The notes beneath the pieces were generated by a model, which saw only the letters and a list, made by a program, of their open reading frames with translations, had not been told where the DNA came from and searched no databases. 31,978 bases of DNA from a virus. The stretch lies in IMG/VR virus record IMGVR_UViG_3300034374_001027, positions 1-31,978 of that record, one strand, 5' to 3'. The position numbers were made by a program, and so were the translations under genes. Shown one piece after another: positions 3,701-28,604 of the stretch (its first letter is position 1; the number at the start of each line of letters is the position of its first letter).

Positions 3701-4105
3701 AGTAGCTGTTGCCCCATATTGATTTCTTGCAGCATTAAACTCATCTTTAGTTTGTTGTTCTGCAGCTTGTTGCTCAAGTTCTTGTGCCCGCTCATTCATT
3801 CTCTGAGCACGTCTAGACTGAGCTTGCAAATTCATAAACTCTTGCTGAGCTTGTTGTTGCCCAGGCATCCCAGCCATTGTAGAAGTAGATATTGGGAGAG
3901 TAGGGTTATCGTATACACCCCCTGTATTAAACTTTGCAAGAGTATTAGCTAGATTAGCTTGTTGCACAGTTTTCTTATCATACTTTTTAGGATTTTTGAG
4001 TACAGCATTTTTAAAAGCTGCAGTACTTATTCCTCTATTTTTTGCCTTTCTAGTAAAAGCTCCTGGGTTTTTGATAGCACCCTTTATCCAATTCTTTTTT
4101 CCCAT
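773..4105 (-). CDS. Large cargo/ejection-type virion protein with GG motifs
   Basis: This 1110-residue protein starts MGKKNWIKGAIKNPGAFTRK, a basic N-terminus resembling crAss-like cargo proteins. Two Gly/Ala-rich hydrophobic stretches (about 195-285 and 466-560) could insert in membranes. Double-glycine motifs recur: FNTGG (59-63), FKNGG (343-347), RYGGKYNNGG (392-401), KYGG (601-604), SHEEGG (626-631), VEGGE (640-644), QDGG (724-727) and a C-terminal KYGG (1093-1096) before a strongly basic tail. Residues about 793-842 (FQEQF... DDMLGEQTASAY) resemble a peptidoglycan-binding PG_binding_1 repeat. The C-terminal third is helical and Q/N/A-rich. It overlaps both neighbours through TAATG, between the muzzle gene and the next cargo gene. 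I infer a protein stored in the particle and ejected through the envelope; the cargo call comes from position and composition, not from a search. Confidence 0.72.
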   Translation of the reverse strand: MGKKNWIKGAIKNPGAFTRKAKNRGISTAAFKNAVLKNPKKYDKKTVQQANLANTLAKFNTGGVYDNPTLPISTSTMAGMPGQQQAQQEFMNLQAQSRRAQRMNERAQELEQQAAEQQTKDEFNAARNQYGATATKGLGTALGAGADAFRAARYAKDAARMTDGVSDVSGLLGNLQKAPLTAGKQGLQGLGQGIKAGVGSLGPAAGGAILGLAGAGIDRLSDDQDETTMNVGETSGALLKGAGSGLGLAGTLTSLAPALAIPGLGWAAAGIGAGVAGVKALKNRNQAREDKAEQDRLDAIEQGRMGRSMNAAFRQGFTTSGQDLGYNTANSMSNAYLPGNQMFKNGGLIKRADGSYSPRGLWDNIRANKGSGKKPTAEMLKQEKKIKAQEKRYGGKYNNGGPAIQVSPEQQALFAQLNPTLNAQIQNMPQSNDRLTNYSQNQLAANENMVNKGRANQAINQGVQTGKAILSDPSLAMDAGQLALAGVAASEIPVASQAAGALNAGIYGARGAYYGAKGAMNSDAAYAAKGALYGGLGVMSAAGMVPGAGAAADASVIGSMASKLKSGLNAAHHTKAAHLAHEGSNIYKANNILDATSNTFKYGGKSVPGGKVASLPQGAKKFIGKSHEEGGIMIDPMTEVEGGETMDQVKMSDGDNSDYIFSKTLKLGGKSFAQRHEEIVRRGGSKQRVQRKIQQLAQMQEKVAAKEGKTENGPRDPNMIAQMQDGGPLEYLTSNVNFGEEGPLSPADPNDPNFVLDAASANLIDLPDTQSENPLGLYSDINKTDYEILKARNPWFDWGEGDLPSKGEIKRFQEQFKANTGRDIRIDDMLGEQTASAYIPYKRNQAAEVVADSPKTEKEKSAEEAETPTSETGTEKTTTPTTDKINMLPGAGAALLGLAQLPRKLKEPPRAANINAQQTGKIRLPRVNYNAERAAGQAGATAVNRQIQDSMGGPGKIAAMIANTNNQRVNNLNIAQAEAQANKQLAAQETMTNAQIAQQNAANVMGAQQFNEQSKYARDLEKYQQNLLRQQAVGDTIAGVGRDFMGYRADERLAAATDETGSYLRFMQNNPGLAKQLLSAMQNQQPEQTQENKYGGYIKRSKKIGRKKKK

Positions 4106-7100
4106 TATCTGAATGATTGTCGGTGCTTGGTTCCTGCCCCATACAAATATATCAAATTATTAGTATTAGCAATTAGTCTAATTCCTAAATAATTGTCTAC
4201 GAATCTCTTCTGTTCGAACCAAGGCTTATTGTTATTTATATATTCTGGGTTAATTCTACCTTCTTCTAAGAACATAGTTTCAGCAATTGGGTAGTTCCCA
4301 TTGTACTGAGTTAAATCTCTAAATGAATTAATGTACCACATTCTATCAACCAATCTACTATTAGTCAGATAATCAATGTTTGTGATATCTGATATCTGTG
4401 TAGAGTTGTAGACATAGAATGAGTTAAACCCAGGGAATGTTACTTTCCTAAATTGACTATCTGCATCTCTATCCTTATCTAGTATCTCCATGTGATAGTA
4501 GATACTAGAGAATATCTTACTTAACTGAGGAGCAGTATTGTCAATGTACTCAAACTCGAACTCATACTGTTGATTGTAGAAGTTAGTATTATTCGAGTCA
4601 CTAGAATGTTCCCATACCTCAGTATTTGTATTTGAATCAAAGTTAATTAGTGAGTAGAAGTTCGATGGGGTATTGCAGTAGAGTACAGGGAGATAGCTGT
4701 GTCTACTTCCCCATACTTTAATTTCTGGGTAGTATGACAATGTCCAACCTGAATCTTGAAAGTATTCGTTGTTAAAAGGTTCTATTCTCTGTCCTGTAGT
4801 TGTGTAAAACCAATTGTTTTCAACGACAATAATATCTCCTTTAATTGCAGCCACCAATTGATTTGTCCCAATACGCTCTCTCTTTGTGAGTAGTATCCTT
4901 TTGAATACTGGGTCATACCCTGCATGAAATCCAAAGCCTGATGTAGGGGAATCTAAGTTAACTCCTGATTCTTCTAGATTGATGTCGTAGTCGTTCTCAA
5001 TTGTGTAGTCAGTATTCTCTAAGAACCACTTCTCCATCCCAGCTGATGATGCTTCAATGATACTATCAGTCATGATATAAGCTTTCTTATCTCTTCTGTT
5101 GAAGTAAAAGTGCCCATATCTTGTTGTAACCCCAGTGTATTGAGAGTCAGTACCCCCATACCCAGTATTTGTAGAGATTACTTCTTGAGGGTCTTGACTA
5201 AATATATCCCCTGACCCAATAAATGCTTGAGTCTGATCCCCAATCTGAAGATTGTCCTTACCTGTGGTAACAAACAATGACCTCTCTGTATGCATATACA
5301 GGACAGCTCCTAGTGTAAAGAGCTTCCAGATATCTCCTCTATTTTTTGGAAGGTCTTTAAACTCTAACGCTAAGAATTGTCTGTACTTATCATTCCCTGA
5401 ACTAGCATCATTGTTAGACCTAATTGTTCTTGTTGGGAAGAAAGTAATATCTCTGTTGGTCTTTGGGTATGGGACAGTTACTCTGATGTCTTGATTCAAA
5501 GAGTAGTTTGTCATATACAGCAGATTGTCTGACTTAGTCCCATCATTTACTGGGGAGTTAAATATTACGTCAGCTGCTGCATCATAGTCAAAGAATCTAC
5601 TTTGATCTGTAGTAATCCCCTCTAAACTATCCCCAGAATGTCTAAACCCTAATAAGTCATCTGACTCACAAACAAAGTAATAGAGAGTAGACTGAGGAGT
5701 TAGATTCCCAAGACTGTAGTTAATTATATCTACATCGTAATCTATTGTAACAGACTGTCTATTGTACAAGCCCCCATAGGTCTGACCTGTGGTTCTAAAT
5801 CCATATCTCCCAATGTATGTATCTCCCCCAAATATAGAATCAGACTCAGCTCCTGTATAGTAGTTTTCTTTTGTAGCGTCCCCTGACTCCAAGTTTACAT
5901 CTGATAATGACTTAAAGTACCCAGTCCATACTAAGTTCTGCTCATCAAATGGTTTGAATACATCAGTCTTATATGCCACAAGATTAGCTAAGTACACAAG
6001 AGGGGATGTACTTTGATTGTCACGATCGTAATCAGAATGTGTAGCTTTTAATGATGTTCTACGAGATATAGCTTCTGGGTCATACCAAGGAGCATTTAAA
6101 GTATTAGATGGAATTGAATTCCCAGATGATCTTGCGAGTATTGCAGGTGGTCCTTTTACTAAGTTTGTAAATATCTGACTCTCTCCTGCAAAGTTGAATA
6201 TGGTGTCTACCCCTTTAAAGGAGTATGCACTGTCATTGGTTAGTATAGTTAACCCAGGAAGATAAGTAATACTCTTAGGTCTTATTGTGTAGATTGAGTT
6301 TAAGTTATCTAAAACCTCACTGTACACATTAGAATCTGATAACTCTGCAAAAAGAAGACTAGTAATATTTAAATCTCCTGGGTTTACATACCCATGACAG
6401 AGTAGAGCATAGGTAATAAAGGCAGTAACGCTATCATCCCCATCTACAATATTCCCGAGTTCTGCATTCACCCATTCTGGGACATAGAAATTACCATTGT
6501 CTTCTTCGTTTGGTTTTCTCCCATCAGTACCTGAGAATACTCTCATGTACATAATCTTCTGAATATCAATGTGAGAAGCCCCAGTAAGGGTATGCTTGTT
6601 CTTTAAAAGATTGAAGTCATGGAAACTGAATGCAGATACGTCTCTATATAAGTCCCCATTCTCACTATAAGCTGCTAAGTAATCAAACTTATTTGGGGGA
6701 ATTGTACCCAATGACAACCATCCAGGACTGAATGGTCCAGTCTTCCCAGCTTCTAATGTTGTAGTAATGGTTGTTAATTTCCTAAATGCAGCAGGGACAA
6801 TAGCACTCTGCCCAATGATTGTCTTGTGCTCTTGCTTTCTCTTTGCGTAGTAAATCTTATACCCTTGAACTTGCTTAAGTATAAACTTAGGTATTCTAAT
6901 GTTCCCTAATTTAATCCCAAGAATATTGATATTCTCAAGCATCTGTGTAGTCTGTGATGCCCCGTTTGGGTTTAATTCATTAGATGAGTTAATACTTATG
7001 TAACTAAACTCAGACTTATTTGATGGGAATTTATGATGCCTAACATTCTCATTTCTAAGAGAGTCCCCAGAGTTACTTGGGTCACCATCATTGTCTACAG

Positions 7101-8715
7101 ACCATACATCAAAGTCATCAGTATTTGGGTAAGTCTCATTTGCATTCTCCCAATAGCTCATATCACTGTCTACAATCTGATGTGTATCTAGTACTTGATA
7201 AGCCAGTGCATCAGGGTAGAACTCTTCAAACTCATTCAAGTTCTGGTAGTCATCTAGTATATCTGAGATTGAAGCTGTTTCAGGTACTCTCCCAGAATCT
7301 AGACTTGCTCTTCCTGGGATATGGTATGCATAAGACTCTGTCCCATCTTTGAGTACAAATGAGATATAGAATGCATATACTTCAGACCTTCTGAATGACT
7401 TGTACTTATAGCTTAGATTAGAGTCTTTATAACCCTTTTTTACATTACTATTTAACTTACTATCAACCCCCGTAAACTTTTGAATATCATACACGTCATC
7501 ATTAGTTGAAAGACTATTGTATCCCTCAGTTAATGTAGATTCACTGTAGTACCTAGGATCGAATGAGCCCAATCTATCAATGACTGGTTCAAGAGTAATG
7601 TTATTTGCAAATCTCTGATACCCAAGGTCTCCTCTAGATTGTAGGTTAGATAGAAATAGTTTGTTGTCTAATTGGACAAGAGTCTTTGCTGACTCGTATC
7701 TTACTCTATCTATAACTACTTCAGATACCCCAGCCTGTGCTACATTCTCCAGTCCTGTGTAAGTAATCTCTAAACTTCTACTTGCCCCAGGAGCAGGAAT
7801 TTCTATCTTCTGAAGACTGTATGCAAATTCACTAGACTCTTGATTCTGCCCACCCCCAAACCTTTGTATGATAACAGGTTGTACGTACTTGTAGTTAATT
7901 GCTTGTGGGAATGATACCCTCCAAGTAATAGATTTATTGCTCTGTGAACCTTGAGGATCCCCAGTAATCAACTCTGTTGGGATGGAATCTTCAGGAGCTG
8001 TTACAAGATGTACAGCATTTGAAGTAGCCATGTAGTTTGTGATGTTGTTCTCATCATCTACATAAGCCAATGCCAAGTGATATGTCCCACTAACAACACC
8101 CCCACCCTCTTCAATCTTTATTGCCCCAAACTCAGGGATATCCCCAGTAGATAAAAACAAGTCTAACTTATCTACACTGTATTCCTCAACTCCATACAAT
8201 ACCCCATAGTTAGGGTTATTGATAGAGTTAATATACTCAAGTTGTTTTGTTAGATTGAATACTCTTGGGGGATTATAGTCATTTAAGTAACTAATCCCAG
8301 TATTTGGTTCTATCTGTCTGTCTACATAGTTATCAGTAAAGTAAACGAGAATATCATTGTTATTCCCAACCTTAGCTGTAGCCTCTATTGTATTTTCTAC
8401 TTGAAAGTTTAAATCATCTGTTCTGTAAACAGGGACATGAGTATTTGCTTTTGGGTCTACGATACTGATAGTATCTAATGTTGTTTCTTGAGTCCCAATT
8501 GCTTTAGAGAATAACACAATTCTCCCATCCTCAAGGACACACTCCCCAATCAGATTGATTATCCTGATAGTAGTATTTATCCCTACTGTCCCATACTCAT
8601 TAGTTATAGCCCCCTTCTGCACATAAAGATTCGCATTCAGAGCATCTCTGTATGTACCATCAGGTTGATCCACTCTCTCTGGATCTTTAACCATCCCTGC
8701 TAAAAACTTTTTCAT
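4105..8715 (-). CDS. Muzzle/tail-hub type structural protein
   Basis: At 1536 residues this is the longest gene in the window. Its N-terminus (MKKFLAGMVKDPERVDQPDG, then TYRDALNANL and NEYGTVG) matches the widespread phage tail 'stabilisation' proteins, in which a conserved PxGxYRDALN segment opens a large beta-rich protein distantly like P22 gp10. In crAss-like phages the protein of this size and place forms the muzzle at the end of the short tail. The rest is beta-rich, with many Y, N, D and G residues, few helices and almost no Cys, as expected for a distal tail shell. It starts inside the 70-residue gene (ATGA overlap) and ends in a TAATG overlap with the cargo gene, so the three are probably translated as a coupled set. 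The exact substructure is inference. Confidence 0.75.
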   Translation of the reverse strand: MKKFLAGMVKDPERVDQPDGTYRDALNANLYVQKGAITNEYGTVGINTTIRIINLIGECVLEDGRIVLFSKAIGTQETTLDTISIVDPKANTHVPVYRTDDLNFQVENTIEATAKVGNNNDILVYFTDNYVDRQIEPNTGISYLNDYNPPRVFNLTKQLEYINSINNPNYGVLYGVEEYSVDKLDLFLSTGDIPEFGAIKIEEGGGVVSGTYHLALAYVDDENNITNYMATSNAVHLVTAPEDSIPTELITGDPQGSQSNKSITWRVSFPQAINYKYVQPVIIQRFGGGQNQESSEFAYSLQKIEIPAPGASRSLEITYTGLENVAQAGVSEVVIDRVRYESAKTLVQLDNKLFLSNLQSRGDLGYQRFANNITLEPVIDRLGSFDPRYYSESTLTEGYNSLSTNDDVYDIQKFTGVDSKLNSNVKKGYKDSNLSYKYKSFRRSEVYAFYISFVLKDGTESYAYHIPGRASLDSGRVPETASISDILDDYQNLNEFEEFYPDALAYQVLDTHQIVDSDMSYWENANETYPNTDDFDVWSVDNDGDPSNSGDSLRNENVRHHKFPSNKSEFSYISINSSNELNPNGASQTTQMLENINILGIKLGNIRIPKFILKQVQGYKIYYAKRKQEHKTIIGQSAIVPAAFRKLTTITTTLEAGKTGPFSPGWLSLGTIPPNKFDYLAAYSENGDLYRDVSAFSFHDFNLLKNKHTLTGASHIDIQKIMYMRVFSGTDGRKPNEEDNGNFYVPEWVNAELGNIVDGDDSVTAFITYALLCHGYVNPGDLNITSLLFAELSDSNVYSEVLDNLNSIYTIRPKSITYLPGLTILTNDSAYSFKGVDTIFNFAGESQIFTNLVKGPPAILARSSGNSIPSNTLNAPWYDPEAISRRTSLKATHSDYDRDNQSTSPLVYLANLVAYKTDVFKPFDEQNLVWTGYFKSLSDVNLESGDATKENYYTGAESDSIFGGDTYIGRYGFRTTGQTYGGLYNRQSVTIDYDVDIINYSLGNLTPQSTLYYFVCESDDLLGFRHSGDSLEGITTDQSRFFDYDAAADVIFNSPVNDGTKSDNLLYMTNYSLNQDIRVTVPYPKTNRDITFFPTRTIRSNNDASSGNDKYRQFLALEFKDLPKNRGDIWKLFTLGAVLYMHTERSLFVTTGKDNLQIGDQTQAFIGSGDIFSQDPQEVISTNTGYGGTDSQYTGVTTRYGHFYFNRRDKKAYIMTDSIIEASSAGMEKWFLENTDYTIENDYDINLEESGVNLDSPTSGFGFHAGYDPVFKRILLTKRERIGTNQLVAAIKGDIIVVENNWFYTTTGQRIEPFNNEYFQDSGWTLSYYPEIKVWGSRHSYLPVLYCNTPSNFYSLINFDSNTNTEVWEHSSDSNNTNFYNQQYEFEFEYIDNTAPQLSKIFSSIYYHMEILDKDRDADSQFRKVTFPGFNSFYVYNSTQISDITNIDYLTNSRLVDRMWYINSFRDLTQYNGNYPIAETMFLEEGRINPEYINNNKPWFEQKRFVDNYLGIRLIANTNNLIYLYGAGTKHRQSFR

Positions 8716-8924
8716 ATGTCGATATCTAAGATCCAGTTTAATTGAGAAACAATTTGCACTGCTTGTTCATGAGTTAACACACCTGTCTCATTGATGGGTT
8801 GCTCTTTAAACTCTACAATAAACTCTGTGTTGTCATTATTCCACCTAACATTGCTAGTAAACTTTGACAAATCAAGTCCATCATAGTCACTTGCTTGATA
8901 TACTTTGTAAAGTTTAGTAGCCAT
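8712..8924 (-). CDS. Small hypothetical protein between adhesin and muzzle genes
   Basis: This 70-residue protein starts MATKLYKVYQASDYDGLDLS. I chose ATG at 8924 because the frame's upstream extension runs back inside the LamG adhesin gene and looks like out-of-frame sequence. A purine-rich AAGGCGAG stands just upstream of this ATG, a possible ribosome-binding site. The gene overlaps the adhesin stop by 11 bases and the muzzle start by 4 (ATGA), so it is embedded in a coupled unit. The sequence is acidic, with alternating strand-like segments (TEFIVEFKEQ) and one C-terminal helix (THEQAVQIVSQLNWIL). I recognise no family. Position suggests a fibre chaperone, an adaptor or a small tail component, but nothing shows which. 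Confidence 0.7.
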   Translation of the reverse strand: MATKLYKVYQASDYDGLDLSKFTSNVRWNNDNTEFIVEFKEQPINETGVLTHEQAVQIVSQLNWILDIDI

Positions 8925-11700
8925 ATCTCGCCTTTGTGTTGTTATAGATTGTCGTGAACTGAGTCTGAGACAGCACTTCATTGTAGATGTGGGCCTCCCC
9001 TATATCGCCATACGCATAGTAAGTCGGCGCACCCAAGACGATATCCGCGGTACTGGTCGTGGTTGTGTCGATGCCTGTAGAAGTAACGCTATTTGAGCCA
9101 GCTAATCCAGAACTAGCAAAAATGTAGTGAATTAACTCGTGCGTTGTGTTGTTCCACGATGCGCAGACATAGTACCAAGTACCCGTGCTGATGGTAAGAG
9201 ATGCTTCTGGGATTGACATTGCAGTTGCGGTACCATCAGAGTCCTGTACTCTCGCGAAGAACCTATTGTTCGTGCTTGCGCAGTTGTAGTACACCTGCAT
9301 ACCCACAAGCGCAGACCCTAGTGTACCAGTAATCATCTGAAGGGAGTCGTCGTCACCTGTTATTTTGTACCATGCACCGATGCTGCAATCGCCACTTACG
9401 GTCGTTGAAGCCACACTAGCCGTGTCGTTTACCCCGTCGTAGTTGAACCACCCATTTGAGTTGTAACCACTTTCCACTCCACCATTCAGCGTTAACGTAT
9501 TACCATTACCTGACAAGTCAAATAATGAAGTGCCTGTACCAGGATATGAATCCTCATCTGCTGGGTCATAACTTGCATACAAGTTTGTCTGAGGTATTCT
9601 ATCTGGGGCAGGAGTTGGGAGAGTTGGTGGTGGGGCAGAAGCAGTAGATTCTTCTACAGCAGCATTAATAATCAATCTGATAGAGGCTACCCCATCAGAT
9701 ATACCCCCGCTTCCAAATGTTACATCTATTCGTGGGGTAGAAGTTTCGTCAAATGATTTAATCAAATCCCAACCAGCAGATACAGAACCAGAACCTGTGT
9801 CTGGGTAAGATATCTGCTTGTCAGCATCAAATGGTGATGTAGTCCATTGACTTGTAGTGATTGGGGTTCCTTCTCCACCATCGTAAGCTACAAAAATCAA
9901 TTCGTTATTGTTAGCACCTGTTATGCCTTCAACCCCAGCAATTGATTCTACACCCCCAAATGCAGTATCAGTTGTAAATGTGTTCAACCAACCTTCAGCT
10001 GTATTTGCGTTGTCTATCTTCAATCCCCACCCAACAAAGTCTGCAGAACCTAAAGATGAGTTTGATATGTAGTAATTCACCCCATCCTCTGTCCCATCAG
10101 CTATTTTGTAGAAGATACCTACGTGAACAGCTTGAGAGCTTGTTCCTGCTTCTGCGAGTTTTGTAAATCCTGCACTCCCAAAAGTATCTGTTCGTATAAC
10201 ATCATTAAATGTAGTACTTGCTGTGTCGTCATGAGCAACCAACAACAATAACAAATCTCCTGTATCTGTGGTTGTAAACCCATCTAAAATCAACCCAGAG
10301 TCAGTTGTTGCACTAAATGTCTCTTGAGCAACATTGAGTTGAATTACGTAATTCGTGTCATTGAGCGTAGCTGTCCCACTTAAAGTATTAGAATCAGTTA
10401 CATTTCTAATCTCTAATGCTACAGGCGATACAGATGATGGGAATTCACAAGCAAGAGTTAAATTCTTTGGTTCTGTAAACGTAAGAGTTGCACCGTTAGC
10501 TATTGTTGTTAACCCAGAGTATGGATCTGTTGGTACGGTTGGGACAACTCCTGCATTGTCTATTCTGTAGTACAATTGAGCAGTCGTGTCATCGTAGTTA
10601 AACGACAGCTCTACAGGCACATTGAATCCCTGAATTGTACGTGTTACGTATTCAGCTGTAGGAAAAGCACCTACGTTTTCTGTATAATCTATAGTACCGT
10701 AGTCAACAAAATAGATTGTATCTACGTCATTGATGATTGTTGGGAGAGCTGCTGGATCCTGCTGTTGATAGTACAAAGACTGATTCCCATTGACTCTACG
10801 CAAATGCTCAGGGGACGATATGGATGTAATCCCTGATTTGATAAATATAAACTCAGATACATACCCATTGAAGCTATTTGAAAATCCTCCTATGTAGTAG
10901 TTTTTAGAGCTGTCAGCAACAGTAACACCTGATGGGGGAGTATTCACTTCTAGATAGTCCCCATTAATAATCAGGCTATCTTTCTCTAATGTAGCATCTG
11001 CTGGAGTGCTTTCAAAGAAGTTATCACCCCTGTGTATAGTAGATACAACGATGAGATCATTCTGACCATTTCCTTGCAGGTCATAAACAATTTCATCAGT
11101 TTGAATTTCAATCTTAGCTGTAGTTGAATCTATGTACAAACCATAAGCATCTCCTGTTTCCCCAGTCTTTGCTTGCCCCTTAAATACAGGACCAACAGCA
11201 TCTAAGACATTGCAAACAATACTTGTAGACCTCCCATCTGCATCAAGACCTGAAGTAGATCCTTCATCAACAACAAACTCTAAGAACTTACCCCCAAAAA
11301 ATCTTATAGATGGGGCATTAGATGGCCCACTTCTTACAATGTCACCGTTTGTGTAGATGATTGGTTGTACAGAAGGAAATTCATTCTGTGCTTTATGATT
11401 GACAGTAGTGTCTAACCCTACAGCTTGATCATACCAAGCTACTATATATCCAGTAGTTCCTACACAAAAATTGTGTATTGCTTGCAAGTCTAAGTGTCTC
11501 CCTTCAAATCCAATATCTGTTTCTGCATCATCTGAACCTCTGCGTATACGTATGCAGTTACCTGTGTAGGCATCCTCAAGTTTTCTCAACGCAAACCATC
11601 CATGAAATAGAGAGCTAAAACTTTCTATGCTCTCGAAAAATGGGACAGGTGGGTAGAATGTCAACCCCCTTGAATTGGATACTGCAGAGTAAAATGACAT
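8914..11700 (-). CDS. LamG-domain adhesin / tail fibre (receptor-binding candidate)
   Basis: This 928-residue beta-rich protein has at least three parts. Residues 30-300 resemble a concanavalin-like jelly roll of the arabinofuranosidase-B type (YIVAWYDQAVG, then NEFPSVQPIIY and a C-terminal FNGYVSEFIFIKSG strand). Residues about 456-680 form a domain seen in phage fibres (GLILDGFTTTDTGDLLLLLV, SVSAGWDLIKSF). After a Pro-rich linker (PPPTLPTPAPDR, 690-701) a canonical LamG/laminin-G3 domain fills 706-928, with the hallmark YASYDPADEDSY and LFDLSGNGNTLTLNGG. Such domains bind glycans, so this is the best receptor-binding candidate. It follows the collagen-like fibre by three bases. The DNA for residues about 735-920 is much richer in CpG than the rest of the gene, suggesting a swapped tip. 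No catalytic residues are evident. Confidence 0.78.
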   Translation of the reverse strand: MSFYSAVSNSRGLTFYPPVPFFESIESFSSLFHGWFALRKLEDAYTGNCIRIRRGSDDAETDIGFEGRHLDLQAIHNFCVGTTGYIVAWYDQAVGLDTTVNHKAQNEFPSVQPIIYTNGDIVRSGPSNAPSIRFFGGKFLEFVVDEGSTSGLDADGRSTSIVCNVLDAVGPVFKGQAKTGETGDAYGLYIDSTTAKIEIQTDEIVYDLQGNGQNDLIVVSTIHRGDNFFESTPADATLEKDSLIINGDYLEVNTPPSGVTVADSSKNYYIGGFSNSFNGYVSEFIFIKSGITSISSPEHLRRVNGNQSLYYQQQDPAALPTIINDVDTIYFVDYGTIDYTENVGAFPTAEYVTRTIQGFNVPVELSFNYDDTTAQLYYRIDNAGVVPTVPTDPYSGLTTIANGATLTFTEPKNLTLACEFPSSVSPVALEIRNVTDSNTLSGTATLNDTNYVIQLNVAQETFSATTDSGLILDGFTTTDTGDLLLLLVAHDDTASTTFNDVIRTDTFGSAGFTKLAEAGTSSQAVHVGIFYKIADGTEDGVNYYISNSSLGSADFVGWGLKIDNANTAEGWLNTFTTDTAFGGVESIAGVEGITGANNNELIFVAYDGGEGTPITTSQWTTSPFDADKQISYPDTGSGSVSAGWDLIKSFDETSTPRIDVTFGSGGISDGVASIRLIINAAVEESTASAPPPTLPTPAPDRIPQTNLYASYDPADEDSYPGTGTSLFDLSGNGNTLTLNGGVESGYNSNGWFNYDGVNDTASVASTTVSGDCSIGAWYKITGDDDSLQMITGTLGSALVGMQVYYNCASTNNRFFARVQDSDGTATAMSIPEASLTISTGTWYYVCASWNNTTHELIHYIFASSGLAGSNSVTSTGIDTTTTSTADIVLGAPTYYAYGDIGEAHIYNEVLSQTQFTTIYNNTKARYGY

Positions 11701-11703
11701 TTC

Positions 11704-14157
11704 TTAAAGAGCTTCTCTTTCCCCAGTCAATACCCACTTATTCCCAGTAGCTGACGAAACAAGCTTCAAAGCCATAGTAGAGTATTGTCTGTACGATTTG
11801 AATGATTGACTTGATACAACAGAACCTCCAGTAACGGTAATCTGTCCTTCCCCAGCTTGCTCAATAACAACCTCAGCACCTAATGGGTAGCTGTTAGACA
11901 GAACATTGTATGATGTAGGAGATGAATTGTCGATTCGTATATACTTATACAAATGAGCTTCTACAAGATCATTAGATGTCCCAGTAAGCTCAACGATATC
12001 AAAAGCTACGTTAGCTGATGTAGGGATGAGGCTTATGGCATTATCATACTGCCACTCTGTCTCTCCTGTTGGGTCACCTTGATCAACAGTCTTAGGACCG
12101 TAAAGAACATAACTTGTGGTGTCAATATAGAAGTCCCCTACATTACCTGTTGTTAGCAAAGGTGGTTCACTCCCATTAAGAACTGACTTACCTGCAGCAC
12201 CTGTTGCCCCATCAGCACCCCTCAAATCACCTGTAGTTGTGTCAGTACCGTCAGTAAGATTAACTGTCAAAGTACCTGATATAGGTTCATAAATTGTACT
12301 AGATATCCCAACACCAGTTTCACCTTGAGGACCAATAATACTAACATACCCAGCTGCCCAAGCTGTCGAATCACTGTAAGGACCCCAAAATCTATTGTTT
12401 AGTGTATCAACAAAGAAGTCCCCTTCTTGATAAGGATTTGATGCGTTTGCAGGATCCGTTGGATTCCCTTCCCCATTCCATATTGTATTCCCATCAGCAC
12501 CAGCAGCACCTGTAAAATCAGATGTAGTAAATGTTGTAGCATCGTCGAATGTGAATGTAAATGTCCCATTCTCATTGTCTGTTACAGACGCTATCCCATT
12601 ACCATCAATACCGTCTGCCCCATCCGCACCTCTAGGGATTGTAAATCTAAACTCAGCATTTAAGTTTGTTCCTACATTCTGTACTAAAGCATTTGTCCCA
12701 GCGTCCCCAGTAATTGTAGAGTCTACTGCAATTGTGGCAGATTGTCCATCACTTCCGTTTGTCCCATTAACACCATCGGTCCCATCTACACCATTACTAC
12801 CTCTAAGGTCTTCTGTTGCAAACCCTAAACCATCATCACTTGTGAATGTAACAATTCCAGTAGCTGGGTCATAACTACCCCCAGTCCAACCTAATCCGTC
12901 AGCTCCGTCAATACCATTGGTTCCGTCAGTCCCATCAGCTCCATCAGTTCCATTTAATGATGCTAACCATTCAACTTCAGTTCCTGAAAACCCATTGTTT
13001 ACTGCAACTTCATAAGCGCTAGTCCCATCTGCCCCGTCTGTACCATTTGTTCCATCAACACCGTCAGTTCCATTGGCTCCTCTTGGGATTGCAAAATTGA
13101 ATACAGCGTTTGGGGATACACCTGTATTTGTGATACTTACATTCTGTCCAGCATTCAGTGTAGTTACTGTCCCTAAACTCAATGTAGGGGTAACACCTGG
13201 AGCCCCATCTTCCCCATCTGCTCCATTCGTCCCATCTGCACCTCGTGGAATCCCAAACGTAAGTGTGTAGTTATCTCCTGATTTTACAGAAGTTACTGTA
13301 GCTTGATTTCCAGCACTTAGTGTTGTAGTTCCCCCAATAGAGAATGTAGGAGTTACCCCAGGATCACCTTGTTCACCCTGAGGCCCTTGAATAGTACCTA
13401 CGTTATTCCATTGAGCACCATCCCATACATAGAGATTACCTGAAATCAAATAACCATCCCCTGCAGTATTACCTTCTGTTGGGAGTTCTGGTTCTGTAGC
13501 TACAGTTCCTAAAATAGTTACTGATGTCCCATCATCACCTTTATCCCCTTTAACACCCTGCAATCCTTGTGGTCCCTCAGGCCCCTGTGGACCTTCTGGG
13601 CCTTGGTCTCCTTGTAGACCTTGTGGACCTTGAGGACCAACTAAACTTAATCCTTGTGGTCCTGGAGGTCCTTGAGGCCCAATCAAAGAGCTTAAGAAAT
13701 CAAGCTGAGTTCCTGTATTCCCGTTATTTAACCATACTTCATATGCACTATCTCCTGGCTCTCCTTGAGGTGCAATATTTGCTGTAGATGGGCGAGAAGT
13801 TGCAACCCCATTGTCTAAGTATAAATACCCAGTTGAAGGTAGTGTCTTTACATCCTTTAAGTCAGTAATACTAAAAGTAGATGTATTAAAGAAGGTGTTT
13901 AATTCATTTGATAGCAATACTCTATCAGTGGCCCATTGACTCCCATCTAATTTTAAGATACTGGTTGTTGGGATATTTACATAGTACTCATCTAATGTAA
14001 CCTTGTCATAAATAGTAATGGCGGCAGCACTCCCAGTTTTAACAGCAAGCTGTTGAGGGTTAAATTTAAACTCCCCAATAATCTCTTGAGTTACATCGTC
14101 ATATGGAGCAATAATCTTTGATGCTCCTTCATCGTATATTTTATACTTAAGTGCCAT
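11704..14157 (-). CDS. Collagen-like tail fibre protein
   Basis: This 817-residue protein starts [20 protein letters not shown]. Residues 1-125 form a non-repetitive head (probably the virion anchor). Gly-X-Y tracts follow: the longest at 160-211 ([10 protein letters not shown] onwards) and shorter ones near 257-267, 306-321, 360-378, 403-421, 453-470 and 609-617. Between them are two SAYEV...NNG...EWLASL cassettes (137-158, 380-401) and three beta cassettes ending in IPRGA(D/N)G (about 268-308, 322-362, 472-513). The C-terminus (715-817) ends with GNKWVLTGE, a common fibre-tip ending. Collagen-like tracts in phage fibres trimerise as stiff shafts. The gene shares TAATG with the ring protein upstream and is followed after three bases by the adhesin, so the two are likely partners. 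Confidence 0.85.
13525..13680 (-). repeat. Collagen-like Gly-X-Y coding repeat
   Basis: This part of the fibre gene encodes about 17 nearly continuous Gly-X-Y triplets (residues 160-211), with an interruption at LSLV. At the DNA level it is a degenerate 9-base pattern (CCTTGTGGT / CCTTGAGGA seen on the plus strand), which could change length by slippage or recombination. It is protein-coding, not a CRISPR or intergenic repeat. Confidence 0.85.
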
Positions 14158-15515
14158 TAATTCTCAATTCTAATATTTCCAGAGATTAGCTTAACATCTG
14201 TAAGAGTTGTAGATGCTGACTGTGCTTTAACTGTTATTACTCCTCCTAAGTTATCTCCTGCGTATATATCTGCATTAACACTTACAGTTGATGCTCCAGC
14301 AGATACTGCATGTCCTGCAAGATCTATTTGAGCATTATCTAAATAAATTTGTACAGATATTGCCCCAGCTCCTTCAGCAGTATATGCAACTTCAAGATTC
14401 AACTCTATGTGAGTATTTGCATTCAGATTACTAACCTCTAACCCATCCCCATTCAGCTGTGCAGGATATGATCCTATGTTTAAGTTGACATCTGAGGTAG
14501 CTGGGAATGGGATAACAACAGCTGAGCTAGCCACATTGATACCATTAACTTCTGTATTCTGAGTCCAGTATACAATTGTTGGGGTAAGTTCAGTAGATGG
14601 GGTAGATTGTACTTGAGCAGTCTTACTGTTTAACCCAGTAGCTGTTGTCATGTAAGCGTAATCTTCTCTATTAAGATTCTCCCTAGTCCCAAGATTAGCA
14701 AACCCTTCATCATGTCTGTTGATGTTAGGGATAAGTCTAACCCACTGATTCATAAATGATTCGTATCTATCAATGTCTGGGAAGTTTGCTGCGTTTCTAG
14801 CTTGAGTGCAGTAGTACTTCCATTGTTGATCTGCAAATACATAGTCAATCCCATTCTGAGCTAACTCCCCTCTCCCAAGTAACATCTTCTTATACACATA
14901 CCAAAACATAGCTTCTTTGTATGAGATGTCATCTGGAACCAATGGGTAGCAGTCTTCATCAACAGGGAATGCCATATAGCTAAGACATATCTTACCCTCT
15001 GCAAATGAAGTCTTTATGTAGTCAGTATCAATGTAATAGCATTCTACATTGACTGCATTTTCGTTTACACAGTTCTCACAGTGAATACTTCTAGGAAAGT
15101 TTGTACCGCAGTATGAGAGTATTGATGTCTCTGCAGTAGCAAGGTATTGTTCTTGAAGTACATGCAATCTTGCATTAACTTGATTGAGTTGACTGCTTGC
15201 ATTTGCACCCCCACTCAATATGTCGTTAAGCTGATCTTTGATGATATCAATCTGATTCCCAAGAGATGCCTCATTCTGACTTGTGTTAATAGCTACTTGA
15301 TTAATGTAATACAAATCATTTGGGAGTAAAGCTTTGTAGTCCTTGATTGTGACAATGCAAGTCTTCTTCTCAAGTTGAGTACTAGCCCCAATATGTTCTA
15401 ACGCTTCCCCAATCCACTCAATAGCATCATCAACCCAGTTATCCCCAACTGGATTGATGTCTCTCATAATCTTTCTGACTATGGTTTTGCTAGATGTAGT
15501 CTTATATATTGCCAT
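14157..15515 (-). CDS. Ring / tail-accessory protein, crAss-like
   Basis: This 452-residue protein starts MAIYKTTSSKTIVRKIMRDI, and residues 17-60 (NWVDDAIEWIGEALEHIG) are typical of the helical gp4-like tail-adaptor family that builds the neck rings of crAss-like phages. Its helical part spans about 1-280. It contains SYCGTNFPRSIHCENCVNEN and NVECYY, a cluster of four cysteines that could bind metal or form disulfides. Residues about 300-452 are a separate beta-rich domain (GSYPAQLNGDGLEVSNLNAN; ELNLEVAYTAEG), probably facing outward or contacting fibres. It overlaps the IHF-like gene by 14 bases and the collagen fibre start by TAATG, so it may be made together with the fibre that attaches near it. 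The ring assignment rests on family likeness; the ring number is not resolved. Confidence 0.7.
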   Translation of the reverse strand: MAIYKTTSSKTIVRKIMRDINPVGDNWVDDAIEWIGEALEHIGASTQLEKKTCIVTIKDYKALLPNDLYYINQVAINTSQNEASLGNQIDIIKDQLNDILSGGANASSQLNQVNARLHVLQEQYLATAETSILSYCGTNFPRSIHCENCVNENAVNVECYYIDTDYIKTSFAEGKICLSYMAFPVDEDCYPLVPDDISYKEAMFWYVYKKMLLGRGELAQNGIDYVFADQQWKYYCTQARNAANFPDIDRYESFMNQWVRLIPNINRHDEGFANLGTRENLNREDYAYMTTATGLNSKTAQVQSTPSTELTPTIVYWTQNTEVNGINVASSAVVIPFPATSDVNLNIGSYPAQLNGDGLEVSNLNANTHIELNLEVAYTAEGAGAISVQIYLDNAQIDLAGHAVSAGASTVSVNADIYAGDNLGGVITVKAQSASTTLTDVKLISGNIRIEN

Positions 15516-17788: not shown

Positions 17789-18457
17789 TTATTGTGTATC
17801 TTGTTGTCTATCATTTTCATCATCGTTTAATGATGAAGTTAATAATCTAAGTTCCCCACTAGCTAATCCACTTGTTATCATAGATACCATATCCGCAGGT
17901 AATGGGAATGGGGAATCTGCATCATAGCAAGATTGATTGCAATCATATCCTGCTAGTTCTTCGGGGTCTTCAAATATACCCCTAATGTTCACTTTATCAA
18001 TGCCTTTGGGATTATATAAGTACAAATAATCCTCAATCATAAATGCTTTGGTATTGTTCTTAGTATGTTTATCGTAAGGTAAATAGTCTACTTCAAATGG
18101 TTCAACCATTGGAATTCTTGTAGTCCCATTAGCTGCCCCAACAAATGTTATGGCTTCTCTAAAATTGAACCTTACTGTTCTTGGGATCTTTTGAACTGAT
18201 TTGTATACTGGGCAATCATTGGGGAGATCAAACCCACAACACTTAGATGCATTGACTGGGGTAATACTTACACACCCAATGCTTTGTTCTAAATGCCTAG
18301 TTACTAACCCATTACGAGCATAGTCCCTGCGAATAAACATCGCACGGTAATGCTTGATATTAAACTTAATCTGAGATAAGGAGATGTTGTCATCGTTAGA
18401 TGATCTACCTGCTCTTACTAAGTTTAAAATGTTGTATGCAATCTCATTGAGAGTCAT
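17789..18457 (-). CDS. Ring / head-tail connector protein, crAss-like
   Basis: This 222-residue protein starts MTLNEIAYNILNLVRAGRSS and continues DDNISLSQIKFNIKHYRAMF, then IRRDYARNG. This N-terminus is very typical of the crAss-like ring proteins related to gp4-type tail adaptors. A Cys-bearing middle follows (GCVSITPVNASKCCGFDLPN and NDCP), then beta segments (RTVRFNFREAITFVGA), GYDCNQSCYD, and a helical end with FPLPADMVSMITSGLASGEL, the last feature also typical of the family. It overlaps the preceding small acidic gene by 14 bases. Its product should form one ring of the neck below the portal. Which ring it forms is not decided here. Confidence 0.75.
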   Translation of the reverse strand: MTLNEIAYNILNLVRAGRSSNDDNISLSQIKFNIKHYRAMFIRRDYARNGLVTRHLEQSIGCVSITPVNASKCCGFDLPNDCPVYKSVQKIPRTVRFNFREAITFVGAANGTTRIPMVEPFEVDYLPYDKHTKNNTKAFMIEDYLYLYNPKGIDKVNIRGIFEDPEELAGYDCNQSCYDADSPFPLPADMVSMITSGLASGELRLLTSSLNDDENDRQQDTQ

Positions 18458-18746
18458 TGTCTTTCTCCATCTCTTGTTTAACCTTTACAAGTTCAGAGCA
18501 TTTTTCATACTCTTCATTGCTTTCAAAATATTCAATCATGTCATCCATGATTAGTTCTAATGTGTATGGTTCGGATGGATCAAATGGGAGAAACATTATT
18601 TCGTGTTTACCCTCAAGCAGTTCCTTAATTGTAACCTTTTTAGTGGCTACCAAGTAAGCATTGTTGTATGCCTCGTCTAAGATTTCAATCTCCTCTTCTA
18701 GGGAGATGTCTTCGAAATCATCTTCATAATCCTCAATCATTGACAT
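18444..18746 (-). CDS. Small acidic hypothetical protein
   Basis: I place the start at ATG 18746 (MSMIEDYEDD) or, six bases later, ATG 18740. The frame stays open upstream to 19046, but that part lies inside the phosphoesterase gene and its translation looks random. The roughly 100-residue product is strongly acidic: FEDISLEEEIEILDEAYNNA, then VATKKVTIKELLEGKHEIMF, LPFDPSEPYTLELIMDDMIE and YFESNEEYEKCSELVKVKQE. The last part, a helical 'YFE..EEYEKCSEL' segment, is seen in small proteins of several Bacteroidota phages. It overlaps the phosphoesterase stop by 14 (or 8) bases and the ring gene by 14, so it is translated as part of that set. Function unknown. Confidence 0.65.
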   Translation of the reverse strand: MSMIEDYEDDFEDISLEEEIEILDEAYNNAYLVATKKVTIKELLEGKHEIMFLPFDPSEPYTLELIMDDMIEYFESNEEYEKCSELVKVKQEMEKDNDSQ

Positions 18747-19884
18747 TGAATTGTAGATACCCAGTAAGTCCAAAAGTTTTACACCATACAAAGGCTTGAG
18801 CTGCTCGTTTGGAGTCATACCCCATCTTTTTATGCCATTCATCGTTAGGGCAAATAGAAGGTAGAAATCTGACTTTGATTCCTCTATACTCATTAACCTG
18901 CTCCTTGTGGAAATGCCCGCAATGAGCCTCCCTAAATTTTGTTCTTGCAAAGACTTCAGGCTTTTCAGTAGCCATAATAAGTGGGATATCTGCAGGTTTT
19001 TCATTGTCTCCATGAGTAAACATGAGCATGTTATTCCCATACTCATAGTATTTTCTAGAATCGTTGCTGTTATCTACAGTGACCGATGGGTCATTTCTAA
19101 ACCATCCTGAGATTACATCTCCTGCATAGAACATACGTTCATAGTCATGGTTACCTGCAACTACAATTACATGTACAGGAGCTATCTGCTTTAAGTAATC
19201 TACAGCGTGTACAATCAATTCCCAGTAACCTCTAAAAGATTCTTTCCAACCTACATCATCATGTTGAGGAGTACCCTTTGTTGTGGTTTGTTTCATCCCT
19301 TCAGAGTTCATCCCATCATTCCCAATAGGGAGTAAGAATTTTTCAATCTCCAATCCACTGGCTCTGTTGACCAAATCTTGTATAGCCAACATAAAGACCT
19401 CAGAGATAGTCAGTCTTGAGTCTTCGACAATTTTACCGTAGTGTATATCTGGGAGAGATATTTCATAAAGTACGGGTTGATTGTAAGCATTCTTTACAGG
19501 CTTATGAGGAATGTTTGTAGAGTATCTACTAGCAAACTCTTCTATTTCCTCTTTGTATGTTTTTGCATCAGTGACATCATGCTTTGTCACTACTGAGAAT
19601 CTAGGTTCTCCTGACATTGTCTGCCAGAACTTTACACTAGATACATCATTGGCATCTATATTACTGAGTTTTAGGAACTTATCAAACTCAGTAATTACAT
19701 TGTCATTATTGTTGTCGTTATCTTGCTCTAATACTCCCTCTCTGTTTAATTTTCTTACTTCAGTTAAAGCATCAACACATAAATCATAGTCAGCATCTAG
19801 ACGTGCGGATAAGCACTGAGCACTTTTCTTTAAGTACCCAGGCGTATCCTTTAGAAACCTAACTATGTCTTTATACTGTGTCAT
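18733..19884 (-). CDS. Calcineurin-like metallophosphoesterase
   Basis: This 383-residue protein carries the metallophosphoesterase motif set in order: DIH (146-148), GND (188-190), GNHD (244-247), THGD (290-293) and GHFH (323-326), so both metal sites look complete. The roughly 130-residue N-terminal part is helical (VRFLKDTPGYLKKSAQCLSA) and resembles a small winged-helix-like or regulatory domain, then a linker rich in D and N (55-62). A segment TKGTPQHDDVGWKE (202-215) precedes the core helix. Such enzymes hydrolyse phosphodiester or phosphomonoester bonds; the substrate cannot be read here. Placement amid neck and tail genes is unusual for a metabolic enzyme, although similar genes are known in related phages. 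It overlaps the coiled-coil gene by 14 bases. Confidence 0.88.
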   Translation of the reverse strand: MTQYKDIVRFLKDTPGYLKKSAQCLSARLDADYDLCVDALTEVRKLNREGVLEQDNDNNNDNVITEFDKFLKLSNIDANDVSSVKFWQTMSGEPRFSVVTKHDVTDAKTYKEEIEEFASRYSTNIPHKPVKNAYNQPVLYEISLPDIHYGKIVEDSRLTISEVFMLAIQDLVNRASGLEIEKFLLPIGNDGMNSEGMKQTTTKGTPQHDDVGWKESFRGYWELIVHAVDYLKQIAPVHVIVVAGNHDYERMFYAGDVISGWFRNDPSVTVDNSNDSRKYYEYGNNMLMFTHGDNEKPADIPLIMATEKPEVFARTKFREAHCGHFHKEQVNEYRGIKVRFLPSICPNDEWHKKMGYDSKRAAQAFVWCKTFGLTGYLQFNVND

Positions 19885-25331: not shown

Positions 25332-26762
25332 TTACGATGCTACACACTGAAGATCTAAGCTAGTATCGAACCTTCTGAGTAAGATACCTGCTGTTTTCAA
25401 CATGTGTACAGATGCACCGTCTATATCACTTGCGCGAGTGTCAGTTTCAGTAAATCCTTTCGGAACAACTGAACCTGCAACAGCCCAACGCAACATTTCA
25501 CGACCCTTCTTGTTGATCATCTGGAGGTTGTTTTCTCCATCATAAGATGATTGGTCAACGAAGGTCATTCTGTATGACTCCAATGGCAATCCAGATTCTG
25601 GGTGCTTAGCAGAAGCTTGAGCAACAGGACCGTGGTCAAACAATGGAACTTTAACTACGTTCACTCTGTGACCATCAATGTGATCGTAAGAAGTGAAGTA
25701 ACCAGTAATTCCAAGATTACGACCGCTACCTGTGATGAACTTAGCTTCAGTAGTCTGGAGGTAAGAGTTGCCTTGTGCTCCACCAGTAGCATAGTAGTTA
25801 CGCAGAGCCTTATCGAACTCACGTGCACCCCCAATACCAGTGTAGAGAGTAACTTGCTTATCAGTAGCATCAGTCATGCCGTAGAACAAATCACCGATAA
25901 CATCCTCAATCTTCTTCTGAGTCAAAGTTGAGTAAGTATCCTTGTTGATGATTTGCTCAAACAAACCAGGACCAGAGATTACTGGTTGACCGTTCTCATC
26001 GAGCATCTGGTTAGTACCCTTATCATCATAAGTCTTTTGACCATACCAGTAGTACATCTCACACTCTTCCTTAAACTTGAGCATGTGACGGTACTCTTCG
26101 TAATCCATCCACAACTTAGTAGTTTGTCCATCCTTCATTGGGAGAGTGAACTGAGCTACATAGTCCTTAGCGTTACCTGCGAAGTGGTAAGACTTACGTA
26201 CTGTACCGATCTTAGAACGTACGAGACCTGGAGCAGTCCAGTTAGATGCATTACCACGAGAGAAGTCAATCCCTACGTTAGCATACAACATACCCCACAA
26301 TGCACCTGCGGCAAGGTCTGCAGTTGGGACAGCTGATACATCAGGAGATACAATCTTCAAAGTGTACTTATACCCACCACCTTCAGGAGTTGGTTGCTCC
26401 ATAATACGAGCAAGTACCCCAGACTGAGATACGAGAGTGTATGGGAAGATGAACCACTTGTCAGGGAAAGTAACAGTAAACATAGAACCACCTGCACCAG
26501 TACCTACAGATGCAACAACTGGACGAACATTTACTTCATGAGTTTTAACTCTGTACTCATACTCAAAGCGATCAATAGAGCGAGTGTTACCCACACCTTC
26601 AGTCAAGAAAGACAATGGGAACTTCTTCTCCTCACGACCTGCGAGGTGAGTAATAATTGGGGAGAGTTCTTCTGGTTTCTCCATAAGCGCATTAACCAAC
26701 GAGTTAGTGTCGGTCATCTGCTGATCATTGTAATAGGTCTTTAAAACCTGCTGTAAAGCCAT
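25332..26762 (-). CDS. Major capsid protein, crAss-like (HK97 fold)
   Basis: This 476-residue protein carries signature segments of the crAss-like capsid family: FLTEGVGNTRSIDRFEYEYR, then GSMFTVTFPDKWFIFPYTLV, GVDFSRGNASNW, VRKSYHFAGNAKDYVAQF, TKLWMDYEEYRHMLKFKEEC, EMYYWYG and LDENGQPVISGPGLFEQI. Its length is normal for the family. It should form the icosahedral shell. The gene sits between the scaffold-like gene (37-base A-rich leader with AATTAAAATTAAAATC) and the conserved 269-residue gene, the usual order. Codon use differs from most neighbours (few GGG glycine codons), fitting high expression. It ends with a Cys (LDLQCVAS). Confidence 0.93.
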   Translation of the reverse strand: MALQQVLKTYYNDQQMTDTNSLVNALMEKPEELSPIITHLAGREEKKFPLSFLTEGVGNTRSIDRFEYEYRVKTHEVNVRPVVASVGTGAGGSMFTVTFPDKWFIFPYTLVSQSGVLARIMEQPTPEGGGYKYTLKIVSPDVSAVPTADLAAGALWGMLYANVGIDFSRGNASNWTAPGLVRSKIGTVRKSYHFAGNAKDYVAQFTLPMKDGQTTKLWMDYEEYRHMLKFKEECEMYYWYGQKTYDDKGTNQMLDENGQPVISGPGLFEQIINKDTYSTLTQKKIEDVIGDLFYGMTDATDKQVTLYTGIGGAREFDKALRNYYATGGAQGNSYLQTTEAKFITGSGRNLGITGYFTSYDHIDGHRVNVVKVPLFDHGPVAQASAKHPESGLPLESYRMTFVDQSSYDGENNLQMINKKGREMLRWAVAGSVVPKGFTETDTRASDIDGASVHMLKTAGILLRRFDTSLDLQCVAS

Positions 26763-26799: not shown

Positions 26800-27879
26800 T
26801 TAGAAGAGAGCATTTAAATCCAGATCATCTGTATCAAATTGTCTCTGTCGGCGTTGGGTGCGTCTGGCGTTTTTAACCTGCTGCTCATTAGAGACAATCC
26901 TTTCTCTCAATGATTGAACACTCTTTGTTCTAGCTCTTGTGTTGATGATGTCATCAAGTTTAAAGCCATTGTACATTAAGTAGTCCATAGCAAGTTTAAC
27001 TTCTAATTCTGATTGACTGTAATCTAAATCTCTTTGAGTCTCCCCATTAGGACCTACAGGCTCAGAGATGTAGTCAAAGAATTTTGCTTTTTGATTGTCT
27101 GGGATACGTACCCCAGCAAACTCATTCCCAGTCTCAATTCTATTTGCTACACCCTCCCAGAACTCTTCTGTTTCTTCTTGTTGTCTTTGGAACTCAGCTT
27201 GCTGCTTTTCAAACAACTCTTGACGATATTGTTCTTGTGCAGTAGCAAGCTCTTGTCTAGCCACTTCTGATTTGCTAAACAATGAACCTCTTGACTCCAA
27301 TGATTCAAGCATATCTTCGATAAACTCATTGTCATGACCTTTTGCTTGAAAGTAGTTTGCTAAGATGATACGCTGAGTACTTACATCTTCTTGATCAATC
27401 TCAACAGCAGAGAAATCTACTTGTGGATTGTAAGCCTGCATAAACTCTTCAGAGTTACCTCCAGACATTACGTAATCAAGATGTCTTTGTACCTCAGGGT
27501 ACTGCTCAAACAATTGACTCAACTGTTCTTCTGCAGCCTCTTGTGACATATCTCTTACGAAATTTGTCAACCCTTCTACAGTATCATCATACTCATCATT
27601 TAACTCTAACCCAAGAGTATTAGCTATTTCGAAAATAACTCCTTGTCCTGCTGAATCTTCTTCAGCATCGTCATCTTCTGTTTCTTCGTACTCTTCTGTT
27701 TCTGACTCCTCTTCGTATTCTTCGGTTTTTGATTCATCTACAATGTCTTCGACTTCTTCATCTACCTCAGAATCAATTTTTTCAACCGTCTCCGGTTCTG
27801 CTGGCATAGTCTCCAGCCCATCCCCCAACATATCGTCAAAGGAGATTGCGCTGATATCTAACTTGTTTTCTTCCGCCAT
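26800..27879 (-). CDS. Scaffold-like acidic protein upstream of capsid gene
   Basis: This 359-residue protein starts MAEENKLDISAISFDDMLGD. Residues 28-75 are almost pure Glu/Asp (EEVEDIVDESKTEEYEEESE). A helical core follows (about 80-300; EGLTNFVRDMSQEAAEEQLS and a Q/E-rich coiled coil RQELFEKQQAEFQRQQEETE), then a basic C-terminus with ARRTQRRQRQ before DTDDLDLNALF. An acidic N-terminus, coiled-coil middle and basic capsid-binding tail, placed immediately before the major capsid gene, is the classic layout of a scaffolding protein. No protease motif is visible. The ATG is preceded by a 71-base AT-rich gap that includes the inverted repeat at 27929-27946. Confidence 0.75.
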   Translation of the reverse strand: MAEENKLDISAISFDDMLGDGLETMPAEPETVEKIDSEVDEEVEDIVDESKTEEYEEESETEEYEETEDDDAEEDSAGQGVIFEIANTLGLELNDEYDDTVEGLTNFVRDMSQEAAEEQLSQLFEQYPEVQRHLDYVMSGGNSEEFMQAYNPQVDFSAVEIDQEDVSTQRIILANYFQAKGHDNEFIEDMLESLESRGSLFSKSEVARQELATAQEQYRQELFEKQQAEFQRQQEETEEFWEGVANRIETGNEFAGVRIPDNQKAKFFDYISEPVGPNGETQRDLDYSQSELEVKLAMDYLMYNGFKLDDIINTRARTKSVQSLRERIVSNEQQVKNARRTQRRQRQFDTDDLDLNALF

Positions 27880-27928
27880 TTTACAAATGTATTTAGTTTG
27901 TGTTTTAGTTTACTTGTTTAATTTGCTT

Positions 27929-27946
27929 TTATAACTGTTGTTATAA
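27929..27946. repeat. Short AT-rich inverted repeat in the portal-scaffold gap
   Basis: TTATAAC and its complement GTTATAA (7 bp arms) flank a TGTT loop on the plus strand, ending five bases after the 217-residue gene's stop. The 71-base gap around it holds nothing else I can name. The stem is weak and there is no T-tract. It could be an operator-like site or chance in AT-rich DNA. Confidence 0.4.
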
Positions 27947-27950
27947 TATA

Positions 27951-28604
27951 TCACTTCCTTCGTATTTTACGTTCAAAATACTTCTTTGTTCCTCCGTATT
28001 TCTTGCTATCCAAAAACCCAGTCTCATCTTCTAATGCATCTAATGCATTTGCACTGTTTATTACGTGTCTCCCAACATTATTGTAAAACTCAATTCCGTA
28101 ATATTTTAGTGGCTTCTGAGCTTTCTTAGCTAGATTAAACGTAAATTTTGCTTTTCCAAGCATTGGTACAGCCCCAAGCATATCTACTGCTTCATCTAAA
28201 TTTGGGTACGACGCGCCTCTATCTTGCATAGAGTTCCATGCACGATAAGCATCATCCCAAGATGATACTCCTGTAGGATCAAATGCTTCTACAGCATTTT
28301 CAAATGTAGAATCGTCTTGAGAATTGTGAGTTTTCACATCTCTCCAAAAATCCATTGAGTCGTAAGGTCTTTGCCTAATCGTGCCCTCATCTCTAACCAT
28401 TGGAGTTGGGGTAGCTGGGTTTAAAGCAACTTGTGGTGAAAGAGGTGTACTGACTCTAGTATTATCTGATGCAGCTGTATAGGGAGGATCAGTAGGTCCC
28501 CCATCTTGCATCTTGCGGTAATTACTAAACATATCTAATAGAGATTCCTTTCTATCAGATAGCCTGTATTCATTTAGTAATTTACGTCGCTCTGCATTAG
28601 TCAT
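27951..28604 (-). CDS. Small protein with QDGG and C-terminal KYGG motifs
   Basis: This 217-residue protein starts MTNAERRKLLNEYRLSDRKE. It has a MQDGGP motif at 32-37, a Pro/Thr/Ala-rich disordered part (38-75), a helical section (DAYRAWNSMQDRGASYPNLD; AVDMLGAVPMLGKAKFTFNL) and a C-terminal KKYGG (201-205) before KKYFERKIRRK. The MQDGGP and KYGG-basic pair also occurs in the 1110-residue cargo protein, and a variant in the 321-residue basic protein. It sits between the portal and scaffold-like genes, with a 21-base gap from portal. A packaged internal protein or portal-associated factor is plausible; no family is recognised. Confidence 0.65.
   Translation of the reverse strand: MTNAERRKLLNEYRLSDRKESLLDMFSNYRKMQDGGPTDPPYTAASDNTRVSTPLSPQVALNPATPTPMVRDEGTIRQRPYDSMDFWRDVKTHNSQDDSTFENAVEAFDPTGVSSWDDAYRAWNSMQDRGASYPNLDEAVDMLGAVPMLGKAKFTFNLAKKAQKPLKYYGIEFYNNVGRHVINSANALDALEDETGFLDSKKYGGTKKYFERKIRRK

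Follow-up and report, generated by a model that had tools for sequence, protein, structure and literature searches.

We analyzed a viral stretch of 31,978 nt (hereafter, the window), which carries a crAss-like structural module comprising capsid, ring protein 1, portal, and terminase genes identified with Pfam and PHROG. The main genes of the window are all encoded on the minus strand. Markers of crAss-like phages (Crassvirales) were present, namely Crass_capsid (1.5e-79) and CrAss_Ring_1 (7.5e-59) in Pfam and portal and terminase in PHROG, and the capsid was only ~30% identical to those of named crAss-like phages. A listed ORF at 18444-19046 overlaps a 383-aa gene (18733-19884) by ~300 nt in another frame, and its true start probably lies further downstream.

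The gene of interest (8914..11700, minus strand) is an ORF encoding a tail-fibre or adhesin protein of 928 aa with a C-terminal LamG tip. It lies between a collagen-like fibre gene and a stump gene, as in the nearest relative, the crAss-like contig L002. The upstream neighbour is the collagen-like tail fibre gene (11704..14157, minus), which matches Pfam Collagen and PHROG tail fibre families and is 40% identical in L002; beyond it, the gene for crAss ring protein 1 (14157..15515, minus), recognized by CrAss_Ring_1, borders the variable fibre interval on one side. Downstream, a CpG-poor gene of 70 aa (8712..8924, minus) overlaps the fibre stop by 11 nt; it is absent from L002 and gave no tblastn match among the retrieved loci. 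It is followed by a stump-like virion structural protein of 1536 aa (4105..8715, minus; phrog_15100, 7.9e-52), which is 66% identical in L002.

Within the fibre protein, the N-terminal part (10822..11700, minus) weakly matched ArabFuran-catal at residues 38-94 (Pfam, 1.2e-6) and also matched phage proteins, some of which are annotated as arabinofuranosidase. The tip, when searched alone against Pfam, matched Laminin_G_3 with 36.3 bits against a curated cut-off of 27.6 (E 7.5e-9), and the whole fibre protein gave no match at 1e-3. An AlphaFold2 model built from an alignment of 48 tips (pLDDT 88.5, pTM 0.89) was a ConA-like jelly-roll, and Foldseek matched it to phage LamG/ConA-like proteins with TM up to 0.83. 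Matches to clostridial neurotoxin binding domains in the PDB (12-18% identity, TM ~0.65) reflect generic jelly-roll likeness and say nothing on toxicity. The first-pass annotation had described a glycan-binding LamG tip; the LamG/ConA-like domain is borne out, and the predicted fold and the position of the tip suggest that it may bind a glycan or receptor.

Four features of the tip, all on the minus strand, are relevant here. The LamG domain starts with ~30 residues (9499..9603) that align to other tips, are CpG-poor, and have phage-like codon usage. They end in a conserved 5' block, DLSGNGN (residues 728-734; 9499..9519), a proposed junction. Directly after this block begins a CpG-rich patch (residues 735-924; 8929..9498), which makes up the LamG tip's core and is the proposed import. 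The gene closes with a 3' block (residues 910-928; 8914..8973) ending in NTKARYGY and the stop codon, which is the conserved C-terminus of LamG tips and the second proposed junction.

The earlier hand count of about 35 CpG at 8941-9540 and about 7 at 9541-10140 was reproduced almost exactly by a direct count, which gave 34 and 7. The corresponding CpG observed/expected ratios were 0.97 and 0.26, compared with 0.35 for the whole window; for the patch itself the ratio was ~1.0, against 0.33 elsewhere. The CpG positions of the patch run from 8929 to 9497, and each flank is CpG-free for ~210 nt (8720-8929 and 9496-9708). Among all 570-nt windows, the best one started at 8929 and held 35 CpG, whereas outside the patch the maximum was 20 (mean 7.4, standard deviation 4.1). 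When codons were resampled from the phage's own usage with the protein sequence kept constant, 60-codon windows within the patch had CpG z-scores of +2.4 to +5.2, and the mildly CpG-richer residues ~300-460 of the fibre gene stayed within expectation. The fibre gene's raw maximum CpG count was equalled in 0.3% of synonymous-codon shuffles, and the share of its CpG falling in a single 570-nt window was 0.51, compared with a null maximum of 0.38 in 5000 within-gene shuffles.

The windowed scan of CpG and codon usage proposed in the first-pass annotation also set the patch apart: with a codon z of -11.5 against the rest of the phage, residues 731-916 were the strongest codon-usage outlier in the window, and the worst segment of the other genes reached about -3.6. 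GC3 was 0.43-0.60 in patch windows compared with 0.18-0.40 across the remaining fibre gene. The shift is not one of CpG alone, because two-fold Y-ending codons that are not followed by G also favour C (26 of 32 in the patch, or 81%, vs 53 of 111 before it, or 48%; p = 0.001).

The composition changes at both conserved blocks. A codon-likelihood analysis placed the change point at residue 735 (window position 9498), with a 2-lnL interval of residues 719-737, in agreement with the break just after DLSGNGN that had been noted by eye at about this residue. Assigning residues 705-734 to the patch costs ~5 log units; the foreign-looking part therefore begins ~30 residues inside the LamG domain and not at its edge. 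In the predicted structure, the patch starts at tip residue 36, where a loop gives way to a strand. On the 3' side, the limit is the last CpG at 8929, within the NTKARYGY-stop block, and the 70-aa gene that starts at 8924 is CpG-poor.

CpG depletion was strong (observed/expected 0.23-0.36) across the whole window and in the related contigs L002-L004 and L008-L010. TpG/CpA was raised in the window (1.20), matching the expectation from CpG deamination, and only slightly in the relatives (1.05-1.11). The earlier description of everything outside the patch as CpG-poor was slightly too strong, as residues ~300-460 are mildly richer and the major capsid gene (25332-26762) has a ratio of 0.61. In the relative L003, the capsid portion (L003:1-579) has a ratio of 0.74 compared with 0.27 for its remainder; CpG-richer stretches therefore need not all be imports. 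This capsid portion is 93% identical in protein, compared with ~38-82% for other genes, a pattern that may reflect either exchange or selection acting on a gene with high expression. Another CpG-richer stretch, at 27601-28200 (17 CpG, ratio 0.95, normal GC of 0.36), covers the gene adjoining portal on its 3' side and the one after it.

Comparison with relatives showed that fibre content varies at this locus. The only close relative with a complete fibre is L002, which lacks a LamG tip: its fibre is 38% identical over residues 1-682 and ends at 675 aa, with the stump gene directly next, so that the linker, the LamG domain, and the 70-aa gene are missing together. The tip is therefore a presence/absence module. 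A search for relatives of the fibre body returned only the same contig and one truncated contig, and none of the retrieved relatives combined the same fibre body with a different LamG tip. In the more distant crAss-like contigs L013, L016, L015, and L018, unrelated fibre genes precede the stump gene (the L015 and L018 loci are cut upstream), and L005 has no fibre gene there. These differences indicate that the interval between ring protein 1 and the stump gene is a fibre-exchange region. Some stretches of the fibre region in L013 and L015 have CpG ratios of 1.2-1.4 compared with ~0.65 for their genomes.

Small, mutually unrelated ORFs lie between the stump gene and the last fibre gene in several of these loci, with 70 aa here and 66, 82, and ~100-117 aa in L013, L016, and L018. 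They adjoin the stump gene where the fibre carries its own tip, and none is found in L002, which is without the LamG tip. Speculatively, these ORFs could be fibre chaperones.

We further compared the tip with LamG tips of other phages. Among 59 other non-redundant tips, the difference in CpG observed/expected between the tip and the rest averaged 0.03 (standard deviation 0.20, maximum 0.56), whereas the tip in the window, at 0.71, ranked first of 60. Because the 59 other tips match their genomes, LamG tips are not intrinsically CpG-rich. A reverse case was observed in L097, whose LamG tip has a ratio of 0.12 compared with 0.64 for its contig and recurs in L030, L031, and L032; it was perhaps imported from a CpG-depleted phage, as one would predict if each tip had its own history.

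Exchange of tips between the same blocks was seen directly in T4-like cyanophages. In two S-RIM44 isolates (L023 and L103), the gene downstream is 99-100% identical in most blocks and the tips are unrelated, with identity restarting at LTATEVSQNFNATR.KYGV-stop. Sf-FR1 (L021) and L103 have a tip that is ~90% common from near APTTVKNLSS onward, and the preceding sequence is unrelated. Between L021 and L062, identity is 95% until ~80 nt beyond the motif, after which the two diverge. In a set of 61 tips, the short stretches of DNA shared by otherwise dissimilar tips fell mostly at either edge of the domain and very rarely in the core, a clustering that stems in part from the retrieval of loci through peptide patterns in or near the conserved blocks. 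The window's own weak DNA matches to other phages' tips lie at 9552-9498 and 8950-8921. Identical codons were only slightly in excess at the 5' block (0.43 vs 0.39), and the 3' block showed no excess (0.47 vs 0.48); the DNA similarity of the blocks is therefore mostly protein conservation. Accordingly, we rejected a reading of repeated recombination from silent-site identity at the blocks.

A different base composition of the donor had been proposed at the outset, and the composition of the patch does differ from that of the phage. However, no donor was found by single-protein search of viral_contigs, nor in phages at E 1e-3, and alignment-based searches recovered distant tips only, the best with 33% identity over most of the domain. 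Short matches of 40-47% over the conserved 5' part of the tip came from marine Bacteroidetes contigs and a Flavobacterium. Codon usage in the patch is near uniform among synonymous codons and was best fitted by contigs of 0.47-0.49 GC, one of them crAss-like (L016); this fit was too unspecific to name a donor.

The composition of the patch and its boundary, the LamG fold, the presence or absence of the tip between relatives, and the cyanophage exchanges lead us to consider it likely that the patch is a recently imported LamG tip core of a crAss-like fibre, acquired via recombination at conserved junctions. The earlier interpretation is thus borne out in part: a foreign, recent tip with a break at a motif is well supported by the composition, the change point, the LamG control set, and the cyanophages, and a swap in this fibre's own lineage is what we infer from them. 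Recombination with the LamG tip of another phage may have taken place at DLSGNGN, close to where the domain begins, and at NxTKxRYG-stop, where it ends. Such an event would have exchanged the variable core but preserved the fold, the reading frame, and the beginning of the next gene downstream. The insert would retain the donor's normal CpG and C-ending codons, not yet worn away, and it would still be visible because CpG is strongly depleted throughout the remainder of the phage lineage. The expected outcome is that the phage would adhere to a different surface structure.

The main rival is that the whole LamG module and its linker, perhaps with the 70-aa gene, was added once to a tipless fibre and that nothing was replaced. 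The joint absence of these three elements from L002 is what such a gain would leave, although the tip may instead have been lost in L002. Direct comparison cannot separate gain from replacement of an older tip, since the only close relative is without LamG. Both the 70-aa gene and the ~30 LamG residues that precede residue 735 share the composition of the phage itself, and because they are CpG-poor, replacement of an older tip is favoured. We therefore regard a single gain of the whole module as unlikely, though it is the most credible of the competing accounts. Composition might also have shifted in place, with selection for expression, structure, nuclease avoidance, or the like raising CpG and GC3 in a native patch, and the less CpG-poor capsids of the window and L003 show that composition can vary without import. 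However, the break is sharp, falls within one gene at a conserved block, and has no counterpart in the 59 other LamG tips, and windows in the capsid region reach at most 20 CpG per 570 nt compared with 35 in the patch; selection in place thus appears very unlikely.

Two further accounts are more improbable still. This is a metagenomic contig, and assemblers can be misled by conserved motifs, so two phages might have been joined artificially at the LamG motif. Past the patch, however, the phage's own composition returns in frame, the gene overlap is intact, and the gene order is conserved; moreover, at the blocks the contig matches the DNA of other phages only over short, imperfect stretches, which makes two such false joins unlikely, and we give an assembly chimera very little credence. 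Least probable of all is that the patch is the hypermutated variable region of a diversity-generating retroelement. It does occupy the 3' terminus of a fibre gene, and if A were replaced at random, CpG would rise in a genome so depleted of it, but no direct repeat of the patch of at least 30 nt occurs within the window, the fold is LamG, and the shift spans 190 codons, mostly at silent positions.

Changes in the receptor-binding tips of crAss-like phages are hard to detect, as few of these phages have been cultured and few sister genomes exist. CpG depletion gives a clean backdrop against which an import can be recognized without a sister genome, and a boundary that falls on blocks where other phages exchange tips offers junctions that can be tested. 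Local loss of CpG depletion may thus serve as a simple screen for metagenomic phages whose host recognition has recently changed, tip swapping being a known route by which phages alter their adhesion targets.

Swapping of distal tail-fibre adhesins between conserved motifs was reportedly described in T-even phages by Tetart, Desplats, and Krisch in 1998. As in those adhesins, the region exchanged here would be a C-terminal specificity region with conserved motifs as recombination sites; unlike them, the fibre belongs to another phage order and another adhesin with a LamG tip, and the evidence comes from composition and comparison instead of isolates of one species. The type of event, an adhesin tip exchange of the T-even kind, is thus known, and what is new is its occurrence in a CpG-depleted crAss-like phage, where the import is legible from composition alone. 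The tips of the T4-like cyanophages S-RIM44, Sf-FR1, and S-H9-2 are likewise C-terminal LamG domains with xKYGV or xRYGY directly before the stop, and are exchanged at the same blocks, but they belong to an unrelated phage group, share 23-24% protein identity with the tip studied here, and carry NLSSxS in place of DLSGNGN. We tentatively raise the possibility that LamG tips with DLSGNGN-like and xRYG-stop ends are a common exchange cassette across unrelated aquatic phages, crAss-like phages included, and that CpG-depleted phages record how recently a tip arrived. Tail fibres and spikes were the only places where recent mosaicism between phage families was observed (PMC10684548). It has been proposed that tailspike receptor-binding domains are exchanged between genera at the conserved DNA motifs that flank them (PMC10408124); the T-even work is cited there as well. 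The fibre resembles those tailspikes in having conserved stretches on either side of the receptor-binding domain, but in the enterobacterial tailspikes one motif lies in the downstream non-coding region, whereas here both blocks are coding.
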